Of a stretch of DNA of 64,000 nt, positions 2,706 through 63,672 are shown in pieces (position 1 is the stretch's first letter; each line of letters starts with the position of its first letter). Source of the stretch: a virus. A program made the position numbers and the translations under genes. The notes under the pieces are model-generated. The model was given only the letters and a program-made list of their open reading frames with translations, had not been told where the DNA came from and did not search any database. The DNA lies in IMG/VR virus record IMGVR_UViG_3300047095_000292, positions 27,908 to 91,907 of that record. One strand, written 5' to 3'.

Positions 2706-3018
2706 TTAACCGATTCCATACCAGTACCTGTTATCTTTAAACTGTCCAGGGACAGCTGCAAGGATATCTTCTCTGGTTAGAATATCTGCCTGCGTTAATA
2801 GCTTACCATCGATCCTTGACCTTCCAGCCACAGGTATCAGACCAATATCGATAGCTTCATTCATGTACTTTAGATATAACTCACGCGGCATTCCGCGAGC
2901 GTACATTTCATCTAGAGTAGCTTTTATTGATTCACTTTGTACTGCTCTTGCATAGATTTCTTTTAAGGCCTGACGAGATTCTAACATATCTGCTGCATTT
3001 GTAAAGAAGGCGTCGTGT
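2706..3018 (-). CDS. Virion RNA polymerase, exon 5 (motif C and C-terminus)
   Basis: The last exon encodes the third base of a Val codon and then 103 residues. It opens with HDAFFTNAAD, matching HDSFGT of T7 RNA polymerase, so D1438 would be the second catalytic metal-binding aspartate. The rest is a helical C-terminal tail ending NRYWYGIG. The ATG at 2987 makes it look like a separate 93-residue gene, but that reading omits the catalytic HD and leaves the upstream in-frame residues unexplained. Intron 4 ends immediately upstream. Confidence 0.8.
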
Positions 3019-3978
3019 CTTTGTGTTCAAAAATGTTCGTTAAACATTCTCAGTATTGTCGAGTTAGTTATTTAATAATTCTTCCAAGTGTTACCAATTC
3101 TTATTTGCCTAATAGTGCTAGGATGCGCATTGTAGCTAACTGCAATTTCAGCATCAGATATTCCATTCTTAATTTTAGATCTTATATCAGGAATGTTCTC
3201 TGCTGTTATCTTGCGGGTCCGCAACTTACCACCATAACGACCAATCACTTCAAGACCTAAATGTGTCCAGCTCTCGCCAAGGCGTATTGCGTTAATAGAT
3301 TGACGTGTGACACCATACATAGCAGCAATCGCGGTATCTTTATACCCTACTGACATATAGTATATAATATCAGGAATATCGTCCTCTACTAAAACAGATT
3401 CCGGTCTACCAGAACCATTTAGCATAAGACCTGTATCATACGCATGTTGGACGTTTTCACGAGGTGTTGCCCACGCTAGATTACCAACTACGTTATTATC
3501 TCTAATTCCGTCTAAATGATTTACTTGTGTTTTGTTTTCTGGATTAGGTATAAAAGCTTCTGCTACAAGTCTATGTACTTTCGCCCTGAATGGTTTACCA
3601 TCTACTTCTATTTTAAAATGTCTATAACCATTTTGCAATGAACCATACGTAAGCAAACCAGTGCTTTCGCGCCTTAATCGCCCCAAACTGCTTACAGCAT
3701 ATCTCTTATCTTTATTGCATATACACCAAAATTCTTCCATTACATTTACTCCTTGTGTCTCGACAACACATCTGCATATTACTGTGCAGAACAGACTATA
3801 TCTTCAACAGCCTTATTGCTAGCTGTTGCCCCGCGTTTCGAGCAGACTTCTGCCCTACTCTACTTGGTAGTTACACCGTTCGATAGTCGTTGCACCTTGC
3901 TCTTGCGAGCCTTGGCTCAGGATTGCCCTTATGAGGGTGTCCCCTGAATTAGCGGAGTTTTACTACGGCAAGTTATTC
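3019..3978 (-). ncRNA. Group I intron 4, with HNH ORF
   Basis: A 960-base intron inserted directly before motif C. The upstream exon ends TACGGT and pairs with the internal guide GCCGTA a few bases into the intron, with the expected U-G wobble at the splice site. The last intron base is G3019. Core strands read on the minus strand are CTAATTCAGGGG (P), CAATCCTGAGCCAAG (Q), GGTGCAACGACTAT (R) and GAAGATATAGTCTG (S). Splicing joins GT and A into a Val codon. The intron carries an HNH endonuclege gene in its 3' half. Confidence 0.85.
3072..3740 (-). CDS. Intron-encoded HNH homing endonuclease (NUMOD4 type)
   Basis: A 222-residue protein inside intron 4. It starts with a NUMOD4-like segment (EEFWCI...YAVSSLGRLRR). 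The HNH core follows as AKVHRLVAEAFIPNP then QVNHLDGIRDNN and NLAWATPREN. The C-terminal half holds two helix-turn-helix-like repeats (DIPDIIYYMSVGYKDTAIA and IPDIRSKIKNGISDAEIA), ending in NTWKNY. Such enzymes cut intronless alleles and so spread their intron. The homing site would be the sequence around motif C of the polymerase gene. Confidence 0.9.
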   Translation of the reverse strand: MEEFWCICNKDKRYAVSSLGRLRRESTGLLTYGSLQNGYRHFKIEVDGKPFRAKVHRLVAEAFIPNPENKTQVNHLDGIRDNNVVGNLAWATPRENVQHAYDTGLMLNGSGRPESVLVEDDIPDIIYYMSVGYKDTAIAAMYGVTRQSINAIRLGESWTHLGLEVIGRYGGKLRTRKITAENIPDIRSKIKNGISDAEIAVSYNAHPSTIRQIRIGNTWKNY

Positions 3979-4046
3979 ACCGTACCTGTTTGAATATTAT
4001 TCTTTTGTCCCCATAGATGAAATTGCTTTACGATAACCGCATCGTT
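3979..4046 (-). CDS. Virion RNA polymerase, exon 4 (68-base micro-exon)
   Basis: A very short exon between two group I introns. It encodes NDAVIVKQFHLWGQKNNIQTGT plus the first two bases of a Val codon. Joined to NGNHS of exon 3 and HDAFF of exon 5, it recreates the HS-x-D ... HD block of single-subunit RNA polymerases (VHSQDGSH ... IHDSFG in T7). Exon boundaries are fixed on one side by the G ending intron 3 (4047) and on the other by P1 pairing of intron 4. Confidence 0.8.
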
Positions 4047-4346
4047 CAGTTTGTTCAATAGTGTTCGTTAAACGCTATCGGTATTGCGCCAATTAGCATT
4101 TTACTTCCTTTAATGTTGCTTGGCGCGCAACACCTGCATGTCACCATGCAGCTCAGACTATCTCTTATACTATTACTAGTATCTCTACGTTTCGAGCAGA
4201 CTACTGCCCTATGGACTTCATCTTCTGTTCTAGAAGGTATGTCCTAGTCGTTGCACCTTCAAAACCATTCCTGGTTAAGCTTGGCTCAGGATTGACTCAT
4301 GGAGTGTTTCCCTGAATTAGTAGAGTTTATTCACAGCATTTTGTTT
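4047..4346 (-). ncRNA. Group I intron 3, without ORF
   Basis: A compact 300-base intron. Exon 3 ends CACAGT and pairs perfectly with the guide GCTGTG, again with a terminal U-G wobble. Core elements close to those of intron 4 are present (ATTCAGGGAAAC, CAATCCTGAGCCAAG, GGTGCAACGACTAG). No endonuclease is encoded; a ribosome site and ATG (AAGGAAGTAAAATG near 4097) open a frame of only 14 codons, possibly all that is left of a lost ORF. Its 3' end shares the TTTAACGAACA block with introns 1 and 4. Confidence 0.8.
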
Positions 4347-5360
4347 ACTGTGATTACCGTTTACGGCGTAAGCCGTTCTAGCCTTGCCAGTATCTACAAT
4401 ATCGTTAATAGTACCTTTCTTATTTAGGAAGTACTGTTCCCATGTTGTAGGCTCTGTCTTTTGCTGTACCTGAATAATATTATTTATCCATTTACCTTCA
4501 GCATTTTTGTATGCAAGCTTCTCTTCAAAGGTCTGCGTAAATACCTGTTCCAGAGTTTTACCATCAAAGTTTACCCATGGAATATTAGTCCAAGACTTTG
4601 GTAGCTTATTATCGTAACCAACCTCAATACCTTTGGTAACATCGATACCGGCTATATCAAACTTACCGATTGTAAAGCCAGTCTTTCGATCAACAGGAGA
4701 TTTATAACCCATGATAATATTAGAGACAGTACTGTCTGGCACATATCCGGGAATACGATTAAGTATCTTTTCTTTAATACTTTCATCCTTAATCCCAAGT
4801 GTACGGCTTAACCATTTAGGTAGTCTCTTACCTGCTTTATAATCACCGTATATTGCAGTCTTTAGAGTAGACACAGGGGCAATACTAGCTGCCTTTGGTT
4901 TAGCATGTAAGGCATAATCCTCAGCAAGTCTACCGAAGAACTTAGTAAAGTCCTTTAAGATAGGTACTTGTGATCTTAAATTCTCGGACATGATCATTGC
5001 AATCTGTTGAAAATCGTCAGGTGTCACGACCTTGCCATATTCCCTGCTAAGTTTCTCAACAAAGTCTCTTGTACGGGGTTCAAGGAAATATAGTTGTTCA
5101 AGCATATCATCACCAGGAGCTAAGCCCTTATTGAACATATCCTTCACATCTTGTCGCAATGCCTTCAGTTCTCGATACATATCTGGATCGAATTTTTCAT
5201 ATCGAGCCATCCTTGCACTGATCTCCGACATGACAGCATCACGCTCACTGGCCTTTACAACAAGAAAATTTTCCTGCTTCTCTAATACCTTAGCAAGTTT
5301 GTTTTCTACGTTCATAATGCCTGTACGCTCGCCTGCTCCGTAAAATGTTACCATATTTTG
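4347..5360 (-). CDS. Virion RNA polymerase, exon 3 (motif B to HS block)
   Basis: This exon supplies 338 residues (1076-1413). It starts QNMVTFYGAGERTG, the second half of motif B with Y1082 and G1083, the equivalents of T7 Y639 and G640 that select ribonucleotides. A long helical and mixed region follows, and it ends YAVNGNHS. Read as a stand-alone gene it would run to a stop at 4317 (KQNAVNKLY), but those residues come from intron 3. The central 200 residues are specific to this protein and resemble nothing I recognise. Confidence 0.8.
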
Positions 5361-5741
5361 CATTTATGTTTAGTATGATTCGTTAAGTCATACTGGTGTT
5401 ATTGTCAAGTTTGTTAATTAGTAATTAGTCCAAGTTTTCTTTGCTATTCTTAATACTACCCATATTACTTACGAAGTATGGTAAGTTGTCTATCTGTTTC
5501 CAAATCTCGTCCATTTTATACTTTCACATGTGTCTTGACAACACCCTGCATGTTACCATACAGATCAGACTATATCTTCAAAGTAGCATAGCTACGATGT
5601 CCCCCGTTTCGAACTCACTTGAGTCCTACGTCTTTCGACTAGTCGTTGAACCTTCAAAAGTGTTTCCACTTAAGCTTGGCTGCTGATTGTCCTGCAACAG
5701 GAGTTTCCAGCAATTAAAGGGATTTTACAAGACCAAAAATT
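5361..5741 (-). ncRNA. Group I intron 2, with HNH relic
   Basis: A 381-base intron splitting motif B between Lys-Ala and Gln-Asn. The exon 2 end CAAGGCT pairs with the guide GGTCTTG with a U-G pair at the splice site. Core strands are AATTGCTGGAAACTCC, CAATCAGCAGCCAAG, GGTTCAACGACTAG and GAAGATATAGTCTG, the same subfamily as intron 1. The last intron base is G5361. Only a broken endonuclease frame remains, so the intron is probably immobile on its own. Confidence 0.85.
5418..5514 (-). pseudogene. Relic of an HNH homing endonuclease in intron 2
   Basis: A start at 5514 gives MDEIWKQIDNLPYFVSNMGS, the NUMOD4 N-terminus of the HNH family next door (TEIWKQYKNTQYLISTLGN). About 20 codons later the frame stops at 5425. 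Another frame of the same bases reads KKTWTNY-stop, which matches the family C-terminus (GKTWKNY). The whole HNH core between them is missing. I infer a large internal deletion with a frameshift that kept both ends of the ORF. Confidence 0.8.
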
Positions 5742-6336
5742 AGCCTTGGAAGCCTTACGCAAATCTTTCTCTGTCAGACCTAGCTTCTTGTTAAGTTCTC
5801 TGAACCTTGGATCATTAAAGGTACTTGCTGCTATCTCGTCGTATAACCTCTGCTTCTGATTAGTAGGTACCACATTACTAAGTTGAGCTAATTGTTTATT
5901 CTTTGTGGCAAGTGCAATAATCTGTGCTCCAGAAGAGCTAGCATCTTGCTCTAGTGCGATGGCTATCTTATAGCTGTTAAGCCTCTTCAAGCTAGCCGCA
6001 GAATAATCACCTCCTAAGTATTCGTTTATCTTAGACATCTCTAAAGCAAACCGTAGGACTTTTCCCTGTTCCTCTCCGTCGATCTCCTGTAAAAATTTTG
6101 ATTCTAATATTTTGCGTATATCATTAGGCTTACCACGACGCATCTGATCACCAAGTTGTATCATGTCTTTGCGCCACAGTGTAGCAATCTGTTGTCTACC
6201 AAGTACTGATAGCGAGTTATACCTGTCTTCTAGATGATCAGATGCTCCACCTAGAAAGGCTCCTATCTGGTCCTGGAAGTTAGCAAACTCAATATCGCTA
6301 AAGTTCTTAGCCTGCGCCGTGTTTAAAAACGGTCTA
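5742..6336 (-). CDS. Virion RNA polymerase, exon 2 (motif A)
   Basis: Exon 2 completes F877 and adds 198 residues (878-1075). It begins RPFLNTAQAK, aligned with TKGLLTLA after the PQ element of T7 polymerase. Motif A appears as LEQDASSSGAQIIALA, where D1008 would be the first catalytic aspartate (T7 D537). It ends EKDLRKASKA with R1070 and K1074 of motif B. The apparent N-terminal residues upstream of 6336 (MLGKYWQYLTN...) are intron sequence, and so are the C-terminal ones below 5742. Confidence 0.8.
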
Positions 6337-7325
6337 CGTTTATGTTCAACAGTATTCGTTAGATACTGCCAGTACTTACCAAGCATTGTTATTGTTTAAT
6401 AGTTTTTCCAGGTCTTACCAGATATAATGCCAGAGATAGTGCCGCTATGCACATTATAATCTCTGCCAATAGAAGCTAAACTTTCTCCAAGTTCGTGTCT
6501 AGTTCGTATATCTGGAATATCCTTACCTGATAGTTTTTTCTCACATATGCTACTTTTAGGACTCTTAGCTGGAAACACTAAGTCTGGTCTAACTTGTTTC
6601 CATGTATCCAAGGTTCGTATCTTAGATATTGTTCCTTTATTAACACCAAACAGCAATCCTATTTCGGTATTATTTAACTCATATTCTACAAATAGCTTTT
6701 TAATATTTTCGACATTCTCTTCATTTAGAACAGCTATGTATGTATCCGAACCAGAAACGCACATATCATTTGACCAAGCGTGTTTCATATTATCTACATG
6801 CGAAAGCCATTCTAAGTTTTCTACTCGATTATCCGTTTTCACTCCATTGATATGATTAACTTCAAGTGATAGATCTTTATTTTCTATAAACGTTATTGCA
6901 ACCAGACGATGCACTGCAATCGTAATATCATCTATATTTACAGCTAGATAACCTTTGCAGTTATCTTTAACTTTTAGCAGTTTCTCACTTTTATTCGACC
7001 ATACATTTCCTAGAGTGCTAATTAAATACTGCGTATTCTTATACTGTTTCCAAATTTCTGTCATGTTAATCTTCCATGTCGTGCTTGGCAGCACTTCTGC
7101 AATTTCGTTTCCTTATATGCAGACCAGACTATATCATCACCGCTGTCATAACAGTACGGTGTTGCGCGCTTCCATCGGACTTCCGATGTACTCCCGTAGG
7201 ATAGTCGTTGAACCTTCAAATTCATTTCTGAATAAGCTTGGCTGCTGATTGTCCATTAACGTATGGAGTTTCCAGCAATTCACGCAATTTTCGATGTATA
7301 TTACTATACAAAGCTTCTGATAACA
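6337..7325 (-). ncRNA. Group I intron 1, with HNH ORF
   Basis: A 989-base intron placed after the PQSGETF element. Exon 1 ends AAACTTT and can pair with the guide GAAGCTTT if one C is bulged, leaving a U-G pair at the splice site. This is the weakest of the four P1 helices, but it is the only choice I found that keeps the frame and ends the intron in G (6337). Core strands (AATTGCTGGAAACTCC, CAATCAGCAGCCAAG, GGTTCAACGACTAT) match intron 2. Confidence 0.8.
6396..7064 (-). CDS. Intron-encoded HNH homing endonuclease (NUMOD4 type)
   Basis: A 222-residue endonuclease in intron 1. The start at 7064 (MTEIWKQYKN) is preferred because it opens the NUMOD4 domain; a longer frame to 7094 adds unrelated residues. 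The HNH core reads AVHRLVAITFIENK, EVNHINGVKTDN, NLEWLSHVDN. Two DNA-binding repeats follow, and the protein ends GKTWKNY. It is a close relative of the intron 4 enzyme, implying copying between sites in one gene. It would cut the intronless exon 1-exon 2 junction. Confidence 0.9.
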   Translation of the reverse strand: MTEIWKQYKNTQYLISTLGNVWSNKSEKLLKVKDNCKGYLAVNIDDITIAVHRLVAITFIENKDLSLEVNHINGVKTDNRVENLEWLSHVDNMKHAWSNDMCVSGSDTYIAVLNEENVENIKKLFVEYELNNTEIGLLFGVNKGTISKIRTLDTWKQVRPDLVFPAKSPKSSICEKKLSGKDIPDIRTRHELGESLASIGRDYNVHSGTISGIISGKTWKNY

Positions 7326-9955
7326 AAAGTTTCTCCGCTTTGAGGCCCAATAAAGCCTCGTTCATATATACGTGCGCGATGATCTAGGAAGGGATGATTG
7401 CTGAATGCAACATCCTTTGTCCTAAGCCATTTCATTGACTTAAGCCTCTCATATGCATCACCACGTTCAATCATATACTCACGATACTTGTTCAAATCAT
7501 TGTAATACTTAGCTGCACCCTTATCATCTTGAAAGTTTATAAGCTTCTCAATGAAATCATGAAAGTCTGGATCTACCTTGTATTTTGCTGACGCTGCCCA
7601 ATTAAGAGCCCTTGTCATATCTTTATCAATTAACTTGGCAGGGAAATCGCTAAAGGAACTTGTAGATGTAATAGGAATTCGAGTATCCATTAGTCCATAC
7701 ATACCCCTATCAACAAAGTATGTTTTATAGCCCTCACGTATCAAGAGTCTATTACTATCTACAGTAACACCAACACGAAGACCCACATCTACCTTTCGAG
7801 TAAGTCTAGCATACTCTTGAATCCTGGGATCTACAATTCGTAGATTCACTGAGAATGTATCATAGTATGGACCAAAATATGCTCCAAAGTTTCTACTCTT
7901 CATTCTACGTTTCTGTACGCCAAAGGTCTCTAATTCATAGAAGCCCTTACCATGCGCGTCATCTAACAGCTTTACTCCAAGATTATACCATTCGTTACGG
8001 CTACCACGATAGTTAGCCATATTATATAAGTCACGGCCTAGTGCAACTGCTAATTGGTCTCTATCAGGTGAGTCTGCTAGACTAAGACGCCTTGCAAACT
8101 TTAAATAGAAATTATCCAACTGTTCATCATCTAGCCTTATCTTTAATTTAGCGGGTAGCCTGAAGTCTAGTATGTTACGTAACTCTTTAGCGATCTTCGG
8201 AGCAGTGCGATCTTCCCATTTATTCTTAGCAATTATATTAGAAATAAAGTTATCATGTAGCTCTTGTAACTGAGTTGGACCAAGAACTGGATCAATATAA
8301 TTAGCTTGCTTTAATTTGAAAAGAAGATTAGCATCTTTTCTAATTTGAGTCTCGATATAATCAGATACGTTCATAATATCAAACTTAATCTGACCTTGTA
8401 AGACAGCCTTCATGTTAGTCCATGGCTCTTTGTTATCACGAAAACGCCCAAAAGTTATCCGGAGATTTTCAGTAATTACTGCCCTCTCGTTAACACCCAT
8501 GTGATCTTCAAGGCCATCTACAAAGTTCTTAATGAACTCTTTATCTCTAGGTAGAAGAGACTCACTCTCATCTACAAGTTTATACGTATTACGCAATGTA
8601 TCAGGACTTGGTTGGTACATACGGGAATCATCGTACCTGCCAGTGATCGGATTATATTTTAAATTCTCTTCTCTAGGTGGTGATCCAAGTACTCTTGCCT
8701 TAGTATTCTTTTTATTATGTAGTAAAGTGCCTCGATAATTCGTAAGAGAAAGCGTACCATCTAGCTCTCCTGATTGCAATATGTAATATTCTTTAAGAGC
8801 TTTCTGGAGTTCCTTATTGTCATAAAATTCATCAGGTCTTGCTGCACCTAACTTAATTACATCCAGTCTCTCCTTCGCCAACGCGAATCTTCGAGTGTCA
8901 CCTGGAATTCCATACCCAGAGTCAGTAAGACCTCTAAGCTCTCTAATCCCGACGCTATTGCCGCCTGCATTAGAGAACTTGTCCAAGGTAAGCTGTCCTG
9001 ATCTAAATAGCTCAAGCTTTGTTGTATCGCCAATGTGCTTGAATTGCACCTCAACGGGTTGTCGTTGTAGCCACGCATTATATGATTCCTTAAGAGGAGT
9101 TTGTCCATCGTATAAGGCAATCTGTTTAGCTGACAATCCTTCAAAATTCCTTTTGCGAATTTGTGCAATACCCTCTAACGAACCGAGTTGGTCATAGCTC
9201 TTAACTATTGGTATTGTCGTCGATCTGCAGTACCAGTGTGCTGGTGGCAGATGCTCATGGTCACTTATCGGGTAGATAGTTCCATCCCTTGACGCACATA
9301 AAGGGGTAGTCCTAGAATCTAATACGGCAACATATTGCCATCCTTGTAATGCCTTTTCATTAGCTTTGTAAACTTCATGGTCAGCCTGAGCATATACACT
9401 TGTCGTAGCTGTAACTGTAAGGCCTTTAGCCTGATTCTTTGTTATATTAAAGGTAGACTTAGATATAGACTTAGCAATTTCATTTTCATTAAGACCTTCT
9501 GCTATACCTTTTCTAATCAGCCCTTCAATACGTATCTTCTCATTCTTTCCAATCCCTGCCCAGCCCTGATCTAGTGTTTTATCAAGGTATATCGGCCTGT
9601 GCAATACAATATCCTCTGCAACACGCCTAGGCGGTTGTGATACTCGCCAGATACGTCCAATTGCATCATCCATATTTTGAACAGCATAGGAAGTCTGATC
9701 CTTGAACAAGTCTAAGAGAGAACGGCTAGACACATTGTGTGCATCTGCCATTGTCTTTATAATTTCTTTATCGAGACTTGCTTGAAAGCCTTTAAAGCCT
9801 GTTCCACGTAACTTTGATTCTTTGATAAGACTATCAACGCGCACTGCATGTCCATCAATAATTAACTCTACTTTATTAGAAGTACGTTGCTCATATAAGC
9901 GTATCATTGCTGCACGATTGATACTCTTATCATAAATCTGTGTATTAACATTCAT
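7326..9955 (-). CDS. MuF-type minor head domain and start of virion RNA polymerase, exon 1
   Basis: The exon encodes residues 1-876. Residues about 211-251 carry the MuF/SPP1-gp7 signature: LDSRTTPLCASRDGTIYPI, then HLPPAHWYCRS with paired Cys and His. SPP1 gp7 binds the portal and is involved in DNA ejection, and MuF domains are known to carry C-terminal effector domains. After a long unassigned region, residues 858-877 read LDHRARIYERGFIGPQSGET, matching the DxRGRxY element of T7-type RNA polymerases. The literal ORF ends at 7304 in intron sequence. Ribosome site AAGGATTATC precedes the ATG. Confidence 0.85.
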
Positions 9956-9963
9956 GATAATCC

Positions 9964-10440
9964 TTAGGACGGCTTATGAAATTCCCCATGATGTTCAGCC
10001 GTAACAGCATCACGAGCCTTGCTTGCTTCCTCTGCAGTATCGTATAGACCGATAGTATGGCGGTTTCCATCAACCACCACCCTCGCCCTCCACTTACCAC
10101 TAAATTTATCTATCCCTTTAAATCCTGACGTGTTAGTACTAGGTGCATTTCTATTCTGCATATTTTGTTCGGCAGTAGCAGGTCGCAAATTTTTTATACG
10201 GTTATTGAGACGATTAGTATCTCTATGATCAACTTTCTCAGGTATGTCGTCATGATGCAACATATAGATCAATCGATGGACCTTATATGTTTTACCACCA
10301 TATTTCACCTGCAGATAGCCTTCGCTATTCTTAGTGCCCACAGGAGAACCCTTAACTATTGAAGGGCCTCCATTAATATTCCAGAACAATTGACCGTCTT
10401 TATAGTAGAATGTTTCTTTAATCTGCTTCTGGGTCAGCAT
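9964..10440 (-). CDS. HNH endonuclease with AP2 DNA-binding domain
   Basis: A free-standing 158-residue homing-type endonuclease between the portal and MuF-polymerase genes. The start at 10440 (MLTQKQIKETFYYKDGQLFW) overlaps the portal stop by 23 bases; a longer frame would only copy portal sequence. The HNH core is YKVHRLIYMLH, KVDHRDTNRLNN, NLRPATAEQNMQN, followed by an AP2-like domain (SGFKGIDKFSGKWRARVVV ... IGLYDTAEEASKARD). No intron features flank it. Confidence 0.85.
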   Translation of the reverse strand: MLTQKQIKETFYYKDGQLFWNINGGPSIVKGSPVGTKNSEGYLQVKYGGKTYKVHRLIYMLHHDDIPEKVDHRDTNRLNNRIKNLRPATAEQNMQNRNAPSTNTSGFKGIDKFSGKWRARVVVDGNRHTIGLYDTAEEASKARDAVTAEHHGEFHKPS

Positions 10441-12076
10441 TAGGCTTAGCCTTCTTAAGTGGTGTCTTAGCTTTAGGTGTTGATATACCAGCCATGTCTG
10501 CAACCTTGCTAGCATAGCTGTCGGCATCAACTTGGCCCATCACCATATCATCTTCAGTAATCTCGATCTGACCCTCTTCGTCATTATAATCAGGACTAAT
10601 CATATCATTAACTTTGAGAATCTGTAGCCAAATAGAACGAGGAATGAGTCCACTCTGATACCATTCAGTAGCAAGACGTAGCCAATCAGCACCAAGTGGG
10701 GTTGGATTAAAGTCAGCAGACAACTCAAACTCAATATCAGTATTTTTAAGCTGTAAATCATAGCGCCAGTTAAGCATAAATGCAATAATAGACGCCATCT
10801 GATTACTTACTTTAATATTAAGAGTTCCTAATTGAGCAGTCTGAGCAGCATTACGAATGTCCAGTGCAACACCTGACTGTTGAGTTTCTGGTGTCAGCAT
10901 ACGAATACCCAGCTTAGCCATATCCTCAATAGCAGATGCAATAGCTCTATCCATGTCTGTAAGTGCAGCAGTAGGTGTATCAAGGACAGTAGCTGTAGCA
11001 CCTTCTGGGAGCTTAAGCCAGGTGCCTAAACCGGCATCTACAATTGCATCAAAAGCATCATCAGTTATATTTCCCGTCAATACAGGTGTATACGTAGACG
11101 CGCCATACAACAGATGATTACGTCGGCTCATTTTATTATATAGTGCAACTTCCTTATCAATAAAAGGAGATAGCATAGGTTCAATAACACGAATTGAACC
11201 ATTTAATGGCCATGCAGGAATCTGTGTAAGACGCTCGCCATTCATTAGAATAGTTTCAAGTGTCTCGACTAGCTCATAAGCTGACAATTTAGGATCAGCC
11301 CCAGCTGCATTCTGCGTATACTTCTGTTGTAGTTTGCCGTTAACAACAATCACCTGCGCATCTTCTACCTTCTTCTCATATCTACGGATACGATAGAAAC
11401 CTTCTACGATTTCATGTACGATAACAGTATCTATATAAGACGGATGAAATTCGTTTTCTTCAACGCGCTCTACGTAGTTTCTAACGATAATCTGTTCTAG
11501 AGACTGTACACCAGTATCCTCTCGAGTCGATACTCGCCAATTAATTATAGATTCAGCGTTCCATATTACAGGATAGGGTTTCAGTTCAGCATACTGTTCC
11601 CTAGTAAGATCTTCTGGGTTTAATATCTTAGGATAGTCTACATACACCCATGCTCTGCTTGTCTGAACTTCTTCCCATAGAATTTCATCAAGAAAAGAGA
11701 CCAGCGGTGAGCTATTATGGCTAAAGTGATTCATTATCCATTCATATGCTCCAGCTGGCACCTTACCTTCTGGAAGCTTAAGCTGAGGTTGTTTCCTTAA
11801 CAGACCACCAATAATAATGCGAGCATATTGAGAGACAATACCTGGGAGTTCTGCTTCTGCCTTGTAGAATTCATATTGCTTTGCATCCATTGAGGGCGAG
11901 AAAGGGATCAGCAAATTGCTAAATGTCAGTACATCAAGGTAGCCATCAAAGTCCTTAGCAAAACGCTCACCACCTATAATTGCTCTCGATTTTTCCCATA
12001 AACCTCTCATTGACTCGTATGAAGATGTTGGATCTGCTACTGAACGCTTGTGTTGAACTGCATTGACTACTGACAT
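10418..12076 (-). CDS. Portal protein
   Basis: A 552-residue protein of portal length. The N-terminal region includes YARIIIGGLLRKQPQL, PLVSFLDEILWEE and RAWVYVDYP, typical of the portal family with the DUF4055-like architecture. An acidic, Lys-rich tail ends KKAKPNADPEAD. The portal forms the dodecameric DNA channel at one vertex and is the docking site for MuF proteins, whose gene follows directly. The start at 12076 overlaps the stop of the HNH gene upstream by ten bases. Confidence 0.85.
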   Translation of the reverse strand: MSVVNAVQHKRSVADPTSSYESMRGLWEKSRAIIGGERFAKDFDGYLDVLTFSNLLIPFSPSMDAKQYEFYKAEAELPGIVSQYARIIIGGLLRKQPQLKLPEGKVPAGAYEWIMNHFSHNSSPLVSFLDEILWEEVQTSRAWVYVDYPKILNPEDLTREQYAELKPYPVIWNAESIINWRVSTREDTGVQSLEQIIVRNYVERVEENEFHPSYIDTVIVHEIVEGFYRIRRYEKKVEDAQVIVVNGKLQQKYTQNAAGADPKLSAYELVETLETILMNGERLTQIPAWPLNGSIRVIEPMLSPFIDKEVALYNKMSRRNHLLYGASTYTPVLTGNITDDAFDAIVDAGLGTWLKLPEGATATVLDTPTAALTDMDRAIASAIEDMAKLGIRMLTPETQQSGVALDIRNAAQTAQLGTLNIKVSNQMASIIAFMLNWRYDLQLKNTDIEFELSADFNPTPLGADWLRLATEWYQSGLIPRSIWLQILKVNDMISPDYNDEEGQIEITEDDMVMGQVDADSYASKVADMAGISTPKAKTPLKKAKPNADPEAD

Positions 12077-27844: not shown

Positions 27845-28726
27845 TTAATCACTCGGTCGTAGTCTGTAAGTCTTTTCTACTTTATATCCAACACCTGCAT
27901 TAACTATCGTATCCTGTATCCAGTATGTGACATACCCATCTTTGGTTTTAAAGCGATGGTCATGTCCCATGCGAATATGTTCTCCTGGTCGATATCTTTC
28001 AACTATATCAGTCTCATCTGGAGCTTCAGCGTTGCTGCTGCTAATCTTGTTCTTAACCTCTATGACTAGCTCCTTATAATGTGTACCAATCCGTTCCTTC
28101 AGCTTACAACCCTTCTTAAGTCTAGGGGTAGAATCCCTCACTGTCACATTCTTACAAGCAAGCAGCATCATCATTTGTAGCACACTGGTAAATACCCAGT
28201 TCATTCTGCCGACATAAACTTCACTACCTTTAAATTGGTACAGGCCTACCTTTTGTCCACCTAAGTTTTTAGGGCGATAGTAACCAACTATGCGGCCATC
28301 TTCCATTGGAACTGTAGGATTTCCTTCTACAACAATTTCAACCTCATCTTCTTTTAGAACAAAAGTCGCAAGAATTGGAGCAAATAGCCAGCTAGCACCT
28401 ATGGTACGGGTAATATAGAGCATCTGTATTGCTTCACCAGGTCCGGTTTGCGAGAGCATAAGAATATCACACAGATCACCTTTTTCAAAGCCCTCTTGAA
28501 ACTCAAGTACCATATGTCTATACGGAAGACAGAAGCGTCTCACTGTAAACTTCTTTGAACTAATCAATACACCGTTATTAGGCAACTTAAATACTGGAGC
28601 CTTTTTATATACACGCAGTGCATTTTCAAGTATATCACTAGCTTGCATAAAGGCAGTATCAGCCCCTGCAGGCTCTTTAGGAAGGTAGACATCATCCTTC
28701 TTGATCTGACTAATAAACGTCTTCAT
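27845..28726 (-). CDS. Conserved-type phage protein of unknown function
   Basis: A 293-residue soluble protein with many hydrophobic beta stretches (ASWLFAPILATFVLKEDEVE). The C-terminal element RYRPGEHIRMGHDHRFKTKD and the end KVEKTYRLRPSD resemble a conserved end of phage proteins of unknown function. No catalytic residues stand out. It follows a 430-base non-coding region and heads a transcription unit, so it may be well expressed. Confidence 0.6.
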   Translation of the reverse strand: MKTFISQIKKDDVYLPKEPAGADTAFMQASDILENALRVYKKAPVFKLPNNGVLISSKKFTVRRFCLPYRHMVLEFQEGFEKGDLCDILMLSQTGPGEAIQMLYITRTIGASWLFAPILATFVLKEDEVEIVVEGNPTVPMEDGRIVGYYRPKNLGGQKVGLYQFKGSEVYVGRMNWVFTSVLQMMMLLACKNVTVRDSTPRLKKGCKLKERIGTHYKELVIEVKNKISSSNAEAPDETDIVERYRPGEHIRMGHDHRFKTKDGYVTYWIQDTIVNAGVGYKVEKTYRLRPSD

Positions 28727-60315: not shown

Positions 60316-61411
60316 TAAAAAACTCCATAACCTTTCTCTTTAGCTCAGGATCCCTTGTAGATACTACAAGAGGTTTCTTGTAGATACCAATCTTAAATCG
60401 CCAATCTAAATACCGATCGTATAATAACACAGTAGGCTTATCAAGTGCAAGCGCAAGATGTGCAAAAGCTGTATCTACCGTTATTACACCATCCATTGGT
60501 CCCAGATAACTAGCAGTATCAAGGAAGCATGTAATACCCTTTGTTACATCAGTGCCTATCTTCTCTTTACCACCCATTTGGAAGTTATACATCTCATACA
60601 CATCAAGAAATTTCTTAAACGCAGAAATTGGGACTAATCGTTCTTTATGTGCATTACCTTTGCCACTTGTGCTATATACGAAAGCGATATTAGGCCTCTT
60701 AGAGAACTGAATCTCTGCAGGTACGTCTCCTGTGTACTTAGATAGCTCAGGAAATTTCCCAAACTTTTCTACATACATACAGAATAAGTCACCTGTAGAT
60801 GTTACGTAATCATAGTGTTCCTGTAGATACACATCCGAGTTATCATAATTTAGTTCATCCTCAATGTACATTTCAAATTCTGGAGGATAATTGTGCCTGA
60901 ACAACAGACCAAGCTCACCTCTAGAGTATATGAAGATACGTTTACAGCCAGCCTCTGGTAAGTACTTATAGACATGTGAGAACATCAGGTCGTCCCCAAA
61001 GCCTTGCTCACCTATTACAAAGACCCTCTTATCTTTAAGCTGATCCCATGATTTTAGATAAGCAATAGCCCTGTGCATACCTGTATATTGATCAAATGCC
61101 GGTTCGCTCGTGTACCACCGATAGTCATACTCCTTAAAACCGGAGATGTCACCTTTATTAAGTTTGTTAATACCTAACAGATTTCTTAGTTTAAAGTCCT
61201 CCTTAAACTTTAGGTATTGAGTAGCATACTCGGTAGATTCGTCATACTCACCCACTAGATAATAATTATTAGCTAGATGTTTTATACAGTCAAGCGTTGT
61301 ACTCTCCCCAAGGTTCTGGGAAAGTGCAATCTTTAAGTATTTAATTGCCTCACGAAGATTACCCTTCTTTTCTAATTTAAATATTTTTACAAGTATTGGA
61401 ATTTTGTTCAT
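60293..61411 (-). CDS. TPR protein with GT9/GT41-like glycosyltransferase domain
   Basis: A 372-residue protein. Residues 1-110 are TPR-like helices (EKKGNLREAIKYLKIALSQN, YYLVGEYDESTEYATQYLKF). The C-terminal part has GEQGFGDDLMFSHVYKYLPE and DGVITVDTAFAHLALALDKP, the signatures of GT9 heptosyltransferase and related O-GlcNAc transferase-like folds. Such phage enzymes may glycosylate DNA, virion or host glycans. It is ATGA-coupled to the RNA polymerase gene, so it is likely made early. Confidence 0.8.
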   Translation of the reverse strand: MNKIPILVKIFKLEKKGNLREAIKYLKIALSQNLGESTTLDCIKHLANNYYLVGEYDESTEYATQYLKFKEDFKLRNLLGINKLNKGDISGFKEYDYRWYTSEPAFDQYTGMHRAIAYLKSWDQLKDKRVFVIGEQGFGDDLMFSHVYKYLPEAGCKRIFIYSRGELGLLFRHNYPPEFEMYIEDELNYDNSDVYLQEHYDYVTSTGDLFCMYVEKFGKFPELSKYTGDVPAEIQFSKRPNIAFVYSTSGKGNAHKERLVPISAFKKFLDVYEMYNFQMGGKEKIGTDVTKGITCFLDTASYLGPMDGVITVDTAFAHLALALDKPTVLLYDRYLDWRFKIGIYKKPLVVSTRDPELKRKVMEFFNDRNKEL

Positions 61412-63672
61412 GCAAATGCATACTCCGAATCTAGAATTAGTGTTATGTCAAGACTACCAAGCTCTACATTGCTAATATCGCCCTCGATATCTATCATAAT
61501 TGAACTCAAAGGATCTGCCTTGTATAGCTCTACAAATGTCTCTCGAATGATGATGAAGAGGTCAGCCATATCTCCAAGCAAGCACCCAAATGAATCATGA
61601 ATGGTGGTAACAGGGAAATCGGCTCTATGAACAGCAAGCATTAGGTGTGCAGCGTCAAGACTATGAATAGCATTTGGTGAAGCTCCCTGAGATTGTTTCT
61701 TTTTGCTATGCTTTGTATGTTCTAGAAAACATATCTTTAGTTGCAATGTGTTCTCAAAACACCCATGACTGTTTCGTTCACCAATAGGTGGTCCGTACTG
61801 TACATTAAGCATCTTTACAATGCCCTCTGTATAATGTTGGACTACAGGAAAATCTGTGATTGGGACAGTCCATGCAAGAAACTCATCACGCGCCTCCGCC
61901 TTCTTTCCAGCTTCCTCGAATACTGAAAGTAGCTGCATAGGCCTACGTAATGAGACACGACAGTCATCATATACTTCACGACCCATGTATGAACCCCAGG
62001 CATGCTCCATAGAGAACAGTTGATCAATGCCATGTTTACGTGCATCATCAATAACTTGCTGTCCAAGGCCATATGCAGTACCGCCATAGGGCAATGTCAT
62101 TACATTTCTCTTACAGATCTTTCTCTTATGTTTTGCATCAGTGATACGATTCCAATATACACATGCTGACTTCTTAAGAAGGCCCTCATGATGTTTCTTG
62201 TAATCGATAATTTCAGATATTAACTCTTTACGTCTGTCTGATTTTAGAGGTGCCTCATTGATTTGATGCTTTAGATCTGAAATATTGTCAATGAACTTTT
62301 CACATTCTTTTATCTCATTCTTAGATAGCTTAGATACTTCTTCTTCGATCCTGAGCCAGACATGGTCAGCAACATACTTATATAAATCGCCAGGAAGATC
62401 AAGTGGTACCAGATTGACGTGTGGCGCAGTAATCTCATCGCGAGTTAATGCTGATAAGTGTTGGGAACCATTGTTTGAGCCATCAATATAACATTCAATA
62501 CTGCTCTGATAATCGTACTCATTCAGCTGTCCGTCATTTATTGCAATACTGTAGATCAATTGCCAATCACGCAATTTCTTTAATTCAAAGCATGCAGCTA
62601 GAAATTGCCATGGTTTATCAGCATGCATCCATCCCTGATTAATCTTCGGAGATAACGCATAGGACAAGATGATTTCCTCATTATCTAGAACCCAATAGAC
62701 CCTGTCATTGAGAGGGATCTTATCTGTCTTATAACCATCATCTCGCCCTGCATCTCCGGCCCAATTAGAGGCAATGGAGATAAGCAACCAAAAATAACCC
62801 TGTTCTCCGATAGATTTTTTATCTGCACGTAGCAGTAATCCTTTTGCAAGATCAGTTCCCTGCTCATTAAGATATGCTGTTGATGGGTACTTCCTTCCCC
62901 TAAAGTCGTACGTGTATAAGTGATAAAAGGTCTTTCCAATAAATCTTTTGGCGATTGATCCAATTGCCTTAGCCTCTCTTATCTTACTTTGTTTTGCTTC
63001 AGGATTGTGCATCTCCCAGATGTCAGCAAAGGCCTCTGTTTTGTTCCGCAATGCCCATGTGTAGATAGGATAAATATCCTCGTTAATCTGCCATCCAACA
63101 GCTTGTGCCTTATTCAGACAGTCGAATACAATAGGATGTGTTTCAGGTGTAAGCTTACGTAAAACCTCTTTGTTAGATGTCTTTACCATGGCTCGCCCAC
63201 TGTCACTATGAGATGATGTCCAGGGGCTGTATGGAGTTTCGCTTGGAAGTTTCTCAGTCTTATCATTCGAGATACTATCCCACAATAGACTAAGCTTATC
63301 TTCCTCTAAGATCTCCACAGTATATGTTGCATGATGATTGGTAGCCTTGCCTAATACTACATGGAGTAACCCTACTACCTCGAAAGTGTAAAGTATGAAT
63401 GCCCCCGCCTTTGCTGCAGCACCACTATCACGCTTTAGCTTATGTACGTTACGAATACCATGACCTATGGCTGAAATTACCTCAGTCATGAGTGTTATCT
63501 TCTTTGATGCCCCTCTGCCTGCCCTGGTGTATAAGTAGATTACTGAGATTGCTAAATCAATCATCTCAGCACAATCAAGATCCTTTATAAACTTAACTGG
63601 ATTTTGTGGTGCAATGTCAGAGGCAATACGTTGTGTTAAGGAAGCAATTAATTTTTGTTTTGTGCTTTCCAT
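61408..63672 (-). CDS. DNA-directed RNA polymerase, single-subunit (T7-like)
   Basis: A 754-residue polymerase. Motifs: YDFRGRKYPS (255-264), motif A ECYIDGSNNGSQHLSAL (D397), motif B with R517, K521, Y529 and G530 in KRKICKRNVMTLPYG, HSLDAAH (670-676), motif C TIHDSFG (D693), and C-terminus DSEYAFA, as in T7 (ESDFAFA). It is about 130 residues shorter than T7 RNA polymerase, mainly at the N-terminal domain. It should transcribe middle or late genes from phage-specific promoters. It is uninterrupted, unlike the virion polymerase gene. Confidence 0.95.
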   Translation of the reverse strand: MESTKQKLIASLTQRIASDIAPQNPVKFIKDLDCAEMIDLAISVIYLYTRAGRGASKKITLMTEVISAIGHGIRNVHKLKRDSGAAAKAGAFILYTFEVVGLLHVVLGKATNHHATYTVEILEEDKLSLLWDSISNDKTEKLPSETPYSPWTSSHSDSGRAMVKTSNKEVLRKLTPETHPIVFDCLNKAQAVGWQINEDIYPIYTWALRNKTEAFADIWEMHNPEAKQSKIREAKAIGSIAKRFIGKTFYHLYTYDFRGRKYPSTAYLNEQGTDLAKGLLLRADKKSIGEQGYFWLLISIASNWAGDAGRDDGYKTDKIPLNDRVYWVLDNEEIILSYALSPKINQGWMHADKPWQFLAACFELKKLRDWQLIYSIAINDGQLNEYDYQSSIECYIDGSNNGSQHLSALTRDEITAPHVNLVPLDLPGDLYKYVADHVWLRIEEEVSKLSKNEIKECEKFIDNISDLKHQINEAPLKSDRRKELISEIIDYKKHHEGLLKKSACVYWNRITDAKHKRKICKRNVMTLPYGGTAYGLGQQVIDDARKHGIDQLFSMEHAWGSYMGREVYDDCRVSLRRPMQLLSVFEEAGKKAEARDEFLAWTVPITDFPVVQHYTEGIVKMLNVQYGPPIGERNSHGCFENTLQLKICFLEHTKHSKKKQSQGASPNAIHSLDAAHLMLAVHRADFPVTTIHDSFGCLLGDMADLFIIIRETFVELYKADPLSSIMIDIEGDISNVELGSLDITLILDSEYAFA

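Follow-up and report, generated by a model that had tools for sequence, protein, structure and literature searches.

A 64,000-nucleotide (nt) stretch of viral DNA, covering positions 27,908–91,907 of the 91.9-kb IMG/VR record IMGVR_UViG_3300047095_000292 (hereafter the window), was analyzed for a gene on its minus strand (9955–2706) that carries four group I introns. The spliced product of this gene is a 1539-amino-acid fusion of a MuF head protein with a T7-type single-subunit RNA polymerase, and the gene is placed between portal and capsid-region genes. Its exons and introns are given below in order of transcription. Codons and residues follow the numbering of the window product, arrows mark insertion points, and relatives are designated by L and a number.

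Exon 1, 7326–9955, minus strand: MuF head-morphogenesis domain (PF04233, 61 bits; PHROG head morphogenesis) and N-terminal part of the polymerase, up to T/DxxGR (DHRAR) and PQSGET; gap-free junction.
Group I intron 1, 7325–6337, minus strand, 989 nt: GET↓F, codon 876.67 (enters codon 877); RF00028 81.8 bits; same-site introns in L027, L140 and L145.
Exon 2, 5742–6336, minus strand: RPFL to motif A (QDASSSG, residue 1008) and the first half of motif B (RKASKA).
Group I intron 2, 5741–5361, minus strand, 381 nt: motif B, KA↓QNMVTFYG, after A1075, codon 1075.00; RF00028 89.4 bits; same-site introns in L137 and L146.
Exon 3, 4347–5360, minus strand: remaining motif B through NGNHS.
Group I intron 3, 4346–4047, minus strand, 300 nt: HSxD block, NHS↓ND, after S1413, codon 1413.00; RF00028 71.9 bits; same-site introns in L027, L140, L151 and L155.
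Exon 4, 3979–4046, minus strand: 68 nt.
Group I intron 4, 3978–3019, minus strand, 960 nt: codon 1435.67 (enters codon 1436), directly before the catalytic HD of motif C; RF00028 78.7 bits; same-site intron in L151.
Exon 5, 2706–3018, minus strand: motif C (VHDAF) through the stop.

An earlier note on this DNA had proposed four group I introns in one gene, and a search with Infernal (cmscan) against the Rfam model RF00028, whose gathering score is 50 bits, bore this out. Exactly four introns were found in the window, matching at 7336–7097, 5752–5546, 4380–4134 and 4026–3772 with 71.9–89.4 bits, all on the minus strand and all within the MuF-polymerase gene; cmscan detected no further RF00028 intron elsewhere in the record. 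All four cores cover the full model (1–253), with intact P7 strands and the conserved P3–P9 core, and each has an insertion of at least 31 nt between P7 and the 3′ strand of P3. With extra P7–P3 stems, as judged by eye, the introns are apparently of the IA type. Precise removal of the introns would restore the frame of the host gene: exons 9955–7326, 6336–5742, 5360–4347, 4046–3979 and 3018–2706 join to 4620 nt, in frame and with one terminal stop, and the resulting protein aligns without gaps at all four junctions (GET↓FRPFL, KA↓QNMVTFYG, NGNHS↓NDAV, GT↓VHDAF) to 13 homologues that are uninterrupted there. The last intron base is G in all four cases. The splice sites and the terminal G are thus as the note had placed them.

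The host protein is identified by its sequence and modelled fold as a T7-type single-subunit RNA polymerase, with T/DxxGR, motifs A, B and C and the fold all present. In the window product the motifs lie at residues 858 (DHRAR), 1008 (DASSSG, motif A), K1074–Y1082 (motif B), 1409 (NGNHS) and 1436 (VHDAF, motif C), and comparison with PDB profiles matched the T7 RNA polymerase at T/DxxGR and motif C. The intronless homologue L008 scored 45 bits with PF00940, over the cut-off. An AlphaFold model of its residues 351–1550 (predicted local distance difference test, pLDDT, 84.8; predicted template modelling score, pTM, 0.80) gave PDB fold matches of which all those listed were T7 or mitochondrial RNA polymerases, at E about 1e-16. 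The closest relatives are all uninterrupted: L082 (86% identity over residues 551–1539), L103/L144 (85% over 964–1539) and L008 (77% over the whole protein). Exon substitutions relative to L082 are mostly synonymous (pN, nonsynonymous, 0.10; pS, synonymous, 0.73) and the exons are therefore selected as one protein. From the MuF domain and the position of the gene, the fusion is probably packed in the virion and injected.

The note had placed all four introns inside catalytic motifs. This is correct for intron 2 (motif B) and intron 3 (HSxD) and nearly so for intron 4, which lies directly before the catalytic HD. Intron 1 is in no catalytic motif: profile alignment places it in a conserved block, some 19 residues beyond the point where T/DxxGR begins, and its assignment to motif A (around D537 of T7) was rejected on the same grounds.

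A P1 helix with a terminal U-G pair can be drawn for all four introns, in the forms that had been predicted: introns 3 and 4 have seven and six uninterrupted pairs, intron 2 has seven, one of them an internal G-U, and intron 1, whose helix is the weakest of the four (shuffle p 0.09), has seven and a single bulge. Empty alleles of relatives seldom pair with the window guides as well as the window exon ends do, the counts being 2/93 at site 3, 3/95 at site 4, 8/96 at site 2 and 10/91 at site 1; the product of these fractions is about 6e-6, uncorrected for shared ancestry. At site 3 the serine codon is AGT (in CACAGT) in the occupied window, L027 and L140, and in only two of the 93 empty alleles, most of which have TCN. 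This two-step synonymous difference tracks occupancy of the site, as predicted by joint transfer of intron and flank or by strict target choice. Compensatory changes in P1 were seen at two sites. At site 876 the window pairs AAACTTT with GAAG(C)TTT and L140 pairs AAACGTT with GACG(C)TTT; at site 1435 the window pairs TACGGT with GCCGTA and L151 pairs CACGGT with GCTGTG.

Homing endonucleases, whose activity is predicted, are encoded by introns 1 and 4 (both HNH_3); intron 2 retains a remnant, and no endonuclease gene was found in intron 3. A further endonuclease gene lies outside the introns.

HNH homing endonuclease in intron 1, 6396–7064, minus strand: NUMOD4, HNH_3 and HTH; open reading frame (ORF) open from 7094, likely start ATG at 7064; PF13392 34 bits, PF07463 27 bits.
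NUMOD4/HNH endonuclease remnant in intron 2, 5425–5514, minus strand: 29 codons, aligning to the N-terminus of the intron 1 endonuclease.
HNH homing endonuclease in intron 4, 3072–3740, minus strand: HNH/NUMOD4 gene; PF13392 39.6 bits.
Free-standing HNH/AP2 endonuclease ORF, 9964–10530, minus strand: upstream of the gene; PF13392 50 bits, tblastn.

The endonuclease in the same-site intron of L151 is 65% identical to the intron 4 enzyme and 34% identical to the intron 1 enzyme, and by this comparison is orthologous to the former. The free-standing ORF overlaps the 3′ end of a portal-like gene; its homologues in L140, L022, L136, L011, L027, L084 and L126 lie upstream or downstream of the polymerase gene or, in L084 and L126, within introns at site 1410.

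Relatives were surveyed at 142 loci, some of whose contigs were fetched twice; the IMG/VR homologue search kept 80 of 546 candidate stretches. About 123 of the 142 loci are uninterrupted, in a search that favours uninterrupted genes. Fourteen group I insertion positions were resolved across the family, given here in window codons.

Before motif B: 694.00; 876.67; in motif A directly after QDA; QKRRL↓YDEI (about 1041.67).
At motif B: 1072.00; 1074.67; 1075.00; 1078.67; 1080.67; 1083.00.
After motif B: 1410.00; 1413.00; 1435.67; 1438.00.

U is the last base of the 5′ exon, and G that of the intron, at the resolved sites; in L024, site 1072 has a one-base ambiguity and no guide match. Six of the sites fall within 12 codons at motif B, a clustering reached in 1 of 20000 random draws, and the flanks of the insertion sites, counted as one site per cluster, are among the most conserved segments of the protein (0/200000 random draws), a preference already reported for group I introns at large (PMC2814812). 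Motif A, unoccupied in the window phage, is interrupted directly after QDA in a relative or relatives. Two motif B introns separated by an exon of only 18–26 nt occur in L027, L129, L024 and L140. The shortest exon of the set is the 18-nt micro-exon of L140, between two motif B group I introns at 8570–8960. A DNA pattern for site 3 matched seven contigs, five of them the MuF-polymerase gene; a loose pattern for site 4 matched mostly unrelated stretches.

The most heavily invaded relatives are L140/L141, with five introns and, at Cys243 in the MuF domain, an intein-like insert, followed by L027 (four introns and an insert) and L146 (three and an insert). The Cys243 insert, about 341–343 amino acids long and present in these three intron-bearing relatives, was rejected as an intron: it is in frame and intein-like, and in L027 and L140 it matches HINT and LAGLIDADG weakly.

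Intein-like insert: L027 about 7712–8740, L140 about 3725–4753, L146 about 3535–4558; starts CYLEDTEIL (L027), ends SN↓C.

Insertions at residue 984, just before motif A, in L130 (about 7283–7737) and L145 (about 1961–2439) were likewise rejected; they are in-frame coding sequence of about 150 residues each, apparently unrelated, and have no group I match. Among deposited genomes, EBPR siphovirus 1 (L005, JF412302.1) carries an unannotated group I intron at 6179–6405 with the HNH gene gp48 inside, its flanking pieces gp47 and gp49 having been deposited as separate genes; the RF00028 match of this intron lies below the gathering threshold (40.5 bits, E 3e-7). In the cultured relative roseophage DSS3_VP1 the corresponding gene, minor head protein-like, has no intron.

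Evidence for movement of the introns was found in a tree of 29 intron cores, short sequences that leave the deeper nodes weak. Introns at the same site often cluster (window and L140 at 1413; L005, L115 and L126 at 1078; L027 and L140 at 1080), as homing predicts, and window introns 3 and 4 fall within a larger clade with 1410, 1413 and 1078 introns. A single clade (support 0.995) unites all three L146 introns, each of which occupies a different site; this is predicted by movement between sites within one gene. For site 4, the only one at which co-conversion was compared, the phages L151 and L027 form an informative pair. They are identical at 993/1001 positions (99.2%) in exon 3, 220/220 in the core of the 1413 intron and 716/717 downstream, and L151 has an extra HNH intron at window site 4 where L027 is empty. 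By contrast, exon 4, before this intron, is identical at only 54/68 positions (79%), with no amino-acid change, and the first 180 nt of exon 5, after it, are about 90% identical. Homing with co-conversion leaves just such a footprint, a diverged patch around the intron in a 99% background, and the pair appears to record one recent intron jump. In the same tract L151 lacks both the endonuclease gene found in the 1413 intron of L027 and the downstream free-standing HNH gene of L027. The placement of sites in the most conserved segments and this footprint agree with the claim that conserved codons are targeted as a homing strategy.

Combined, these results indicate that four mobile group I introns, which splice and home, have very probably invaded a MuF-polymerase gene. 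The internal guide of each intron would pair with the last 6–7 exon bases, and guanosine-initiated transesterification would be expected to remove the introns, restoring a single mRNA frame of 1539 amino acids. During mixed infection the HNH enzymes of introns 1 and 4 would cleave the corresponding site of alleles that lack the intron, or nick it, and repair would then carry the intron, together with adjoining exon sequence, over to the recipient. The endonuclease would have been lost in large part or entirely from introns 2 and 3. Invariant codons serve as sites for two reasons: strains share the DNA target there, and an intron lost imprecisely would leave the enzyme destroyed.

Several points weigh against this interpretation. 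Intron 1 forms its P1 only with a bulge, and this helix is barely better than shuffles, the 68-nt exon 4 may not always be included, and virion packaging is deduced from the MuF domain and gene position alone. Splicing in the cell we infer from sequence, as we also infer endonuclease activity and protein injection. The source record is, moreover, a metagenome assembly, and the window was drawn from a metagenome-derived virus collection, so that the four-intron gene could in principle be an assembly chimera. This is exceedingly improbable given the perfect frame and junctions, the multi-intron relatives in independent contigs, with a layout that is identical in the two metagenome records L140 and L141, and an intron of the same kind in the GenBank record of EBPR siphovirus 1. 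It is also very unlikely that some introns no longer splice, leaving separately translated pieces or a decaying pseudogene. The absence of intact endonucleases from introns 2 and 3, the weak P1 of intron 1 and the split annotation of EBPR siphovirus 1 would fit such decay, although that annotation simply overlooked the intron; however, purifying selection on the exons is strong, neither a frameshift nor a stop interrupts them, the catalytic cores and P7 are intact in all four introns, exon ends remain matched to the guides, and exons 4 and 5 alone would be insufficient for a polymerase.

A different question is whether the introns and endonucleases are kept for a benefit, either because they cut the polymerase gene of competitors, for which PhiPA3 gp210 is a model, or because they postpone synthesis of the polymerase. 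The precedent of gp210, which nicks a PhiKZ gene and cripples PhiKZ (PMC11620839), and the presence of intact endonuclease genes in two introns (1 and 4) of a gene predicted to encode a virion polymerase speak for this possibility, but we consider it doubtful: the uninterrupted state of most loci, even in a survey biased that way, implies that the introns are not required, and endonucleases are frequently lost. We tentatively propose, as a possibility of rather low probability, that the gene is a standing battleground, in which competing intron-endonuclease families and an intein target catalytic-motif codons, displacing and co-converting one another between co-infecting phages. Motif B introns 18–26 nt apart in relatives would then splice around micro-exons, with possible exon skipping tuning polymerase dosage.

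Judged from relatives, the MuF-polymerase gene is a repeated target of selfish introns, which adds a MuF-fused T7-type polymerase to the genes they are found to occupy. As group I introns the elements themselves are ordinary; what goes beyond the published cases found is the host gene, the number of introns per gene and the clustering at motif B. Four introns in one gene had been called exceptional, which holds against the phage literature found (at most three per gene) and does not hold within the family, where relatives have four or five introns and an intein-like insert. The 14 sites and the near-identical phage pair provide a natural data set on endonuclease site choice, movement between sites and micro-exon splicing, and in viral metagenomes the annotation of some of these polymerase genes shows them as broken fragments, EBPR siphovirus 1 being an example. 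For the host, a search of genome contigs gave only two contigs, both from one metagenome-assembled genome labelled Gammaproteobacteria.

Phage N4 has both virion and non-virion RNA polymerases. The window likewise contains a second polymerase gene.

Second single-subunit RNA polymerase, 61408–63672, minus strand: 754 amino acids, intron-free, with no RF00028 match; PF00940 214 bits, phrog_414 389 bits.

The N4 virion RNA polymerase, of the T7 family, is a giant, with about 3500 residues (PMC12633501). Common to both systems are a single-subunit polymerase with a predicted place in the virion and a second polymerase gene in the genome; they differ in that the polymerase described here is MuF-fused, its virion location being predicted from genes, whereas the N4 enzyme is giant.

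In PhiPA3, the HNH enzyme gp210 belongs to a group I intron in the gene of the virion RNA polymerase beta subunit, at a conserved aspartate motif, and damages a competing phage (PMC11620839); multisubunit virion polymerase beta′ genes of giant phages contain group I and II introns (PMC12350094). Mobile introns and endonucleases beside conserved catalytic residues of a virion RNA polymerase gene, predicted as such in our case, are common to these cases and ours, but theirs are multisubunit polymerases with fewer introns per gene and ours is a MuF-fused single-subunit enzyme. Since the two kinds of polymerase are unrelated, PhiPA3 offers a parallel rather than a relative.

DNA polymerase and terminase genes of Bastillevirinae contain up to three group I introns per gene, with splicing shown by sequencing, HNH/NUMOD4 endonucleases and, in SIOphi, skipping of one internal exon (PMC11878797). 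Multiple introns per gene and enzymes of the HNH/NUMOD4 type are shared with the window, whereas the host genes are others and the introns number at most three. No paper was found on introns in single-subunit phage polymerase genes or on a MuF-polymerase gene as intron host, which is weak evidence as most subscription journals were not covered.

In orf142 of Staphylococcus phage Twort, the tail-tube gene, three group I introns (two of them IA2), a 23-nt exon and exon skipping are described (Landthaler and Shub 1999, in PMC10136302). Twort resembles the present gene in having several group I introns in one phage gene and a tiny exon between two of them; it differs in that three introns occupy a tail-tube gene, whereas here four introns lie at conserved catalytic segments of a polymerase, and relatives carry up to five together with an intein-like insert.

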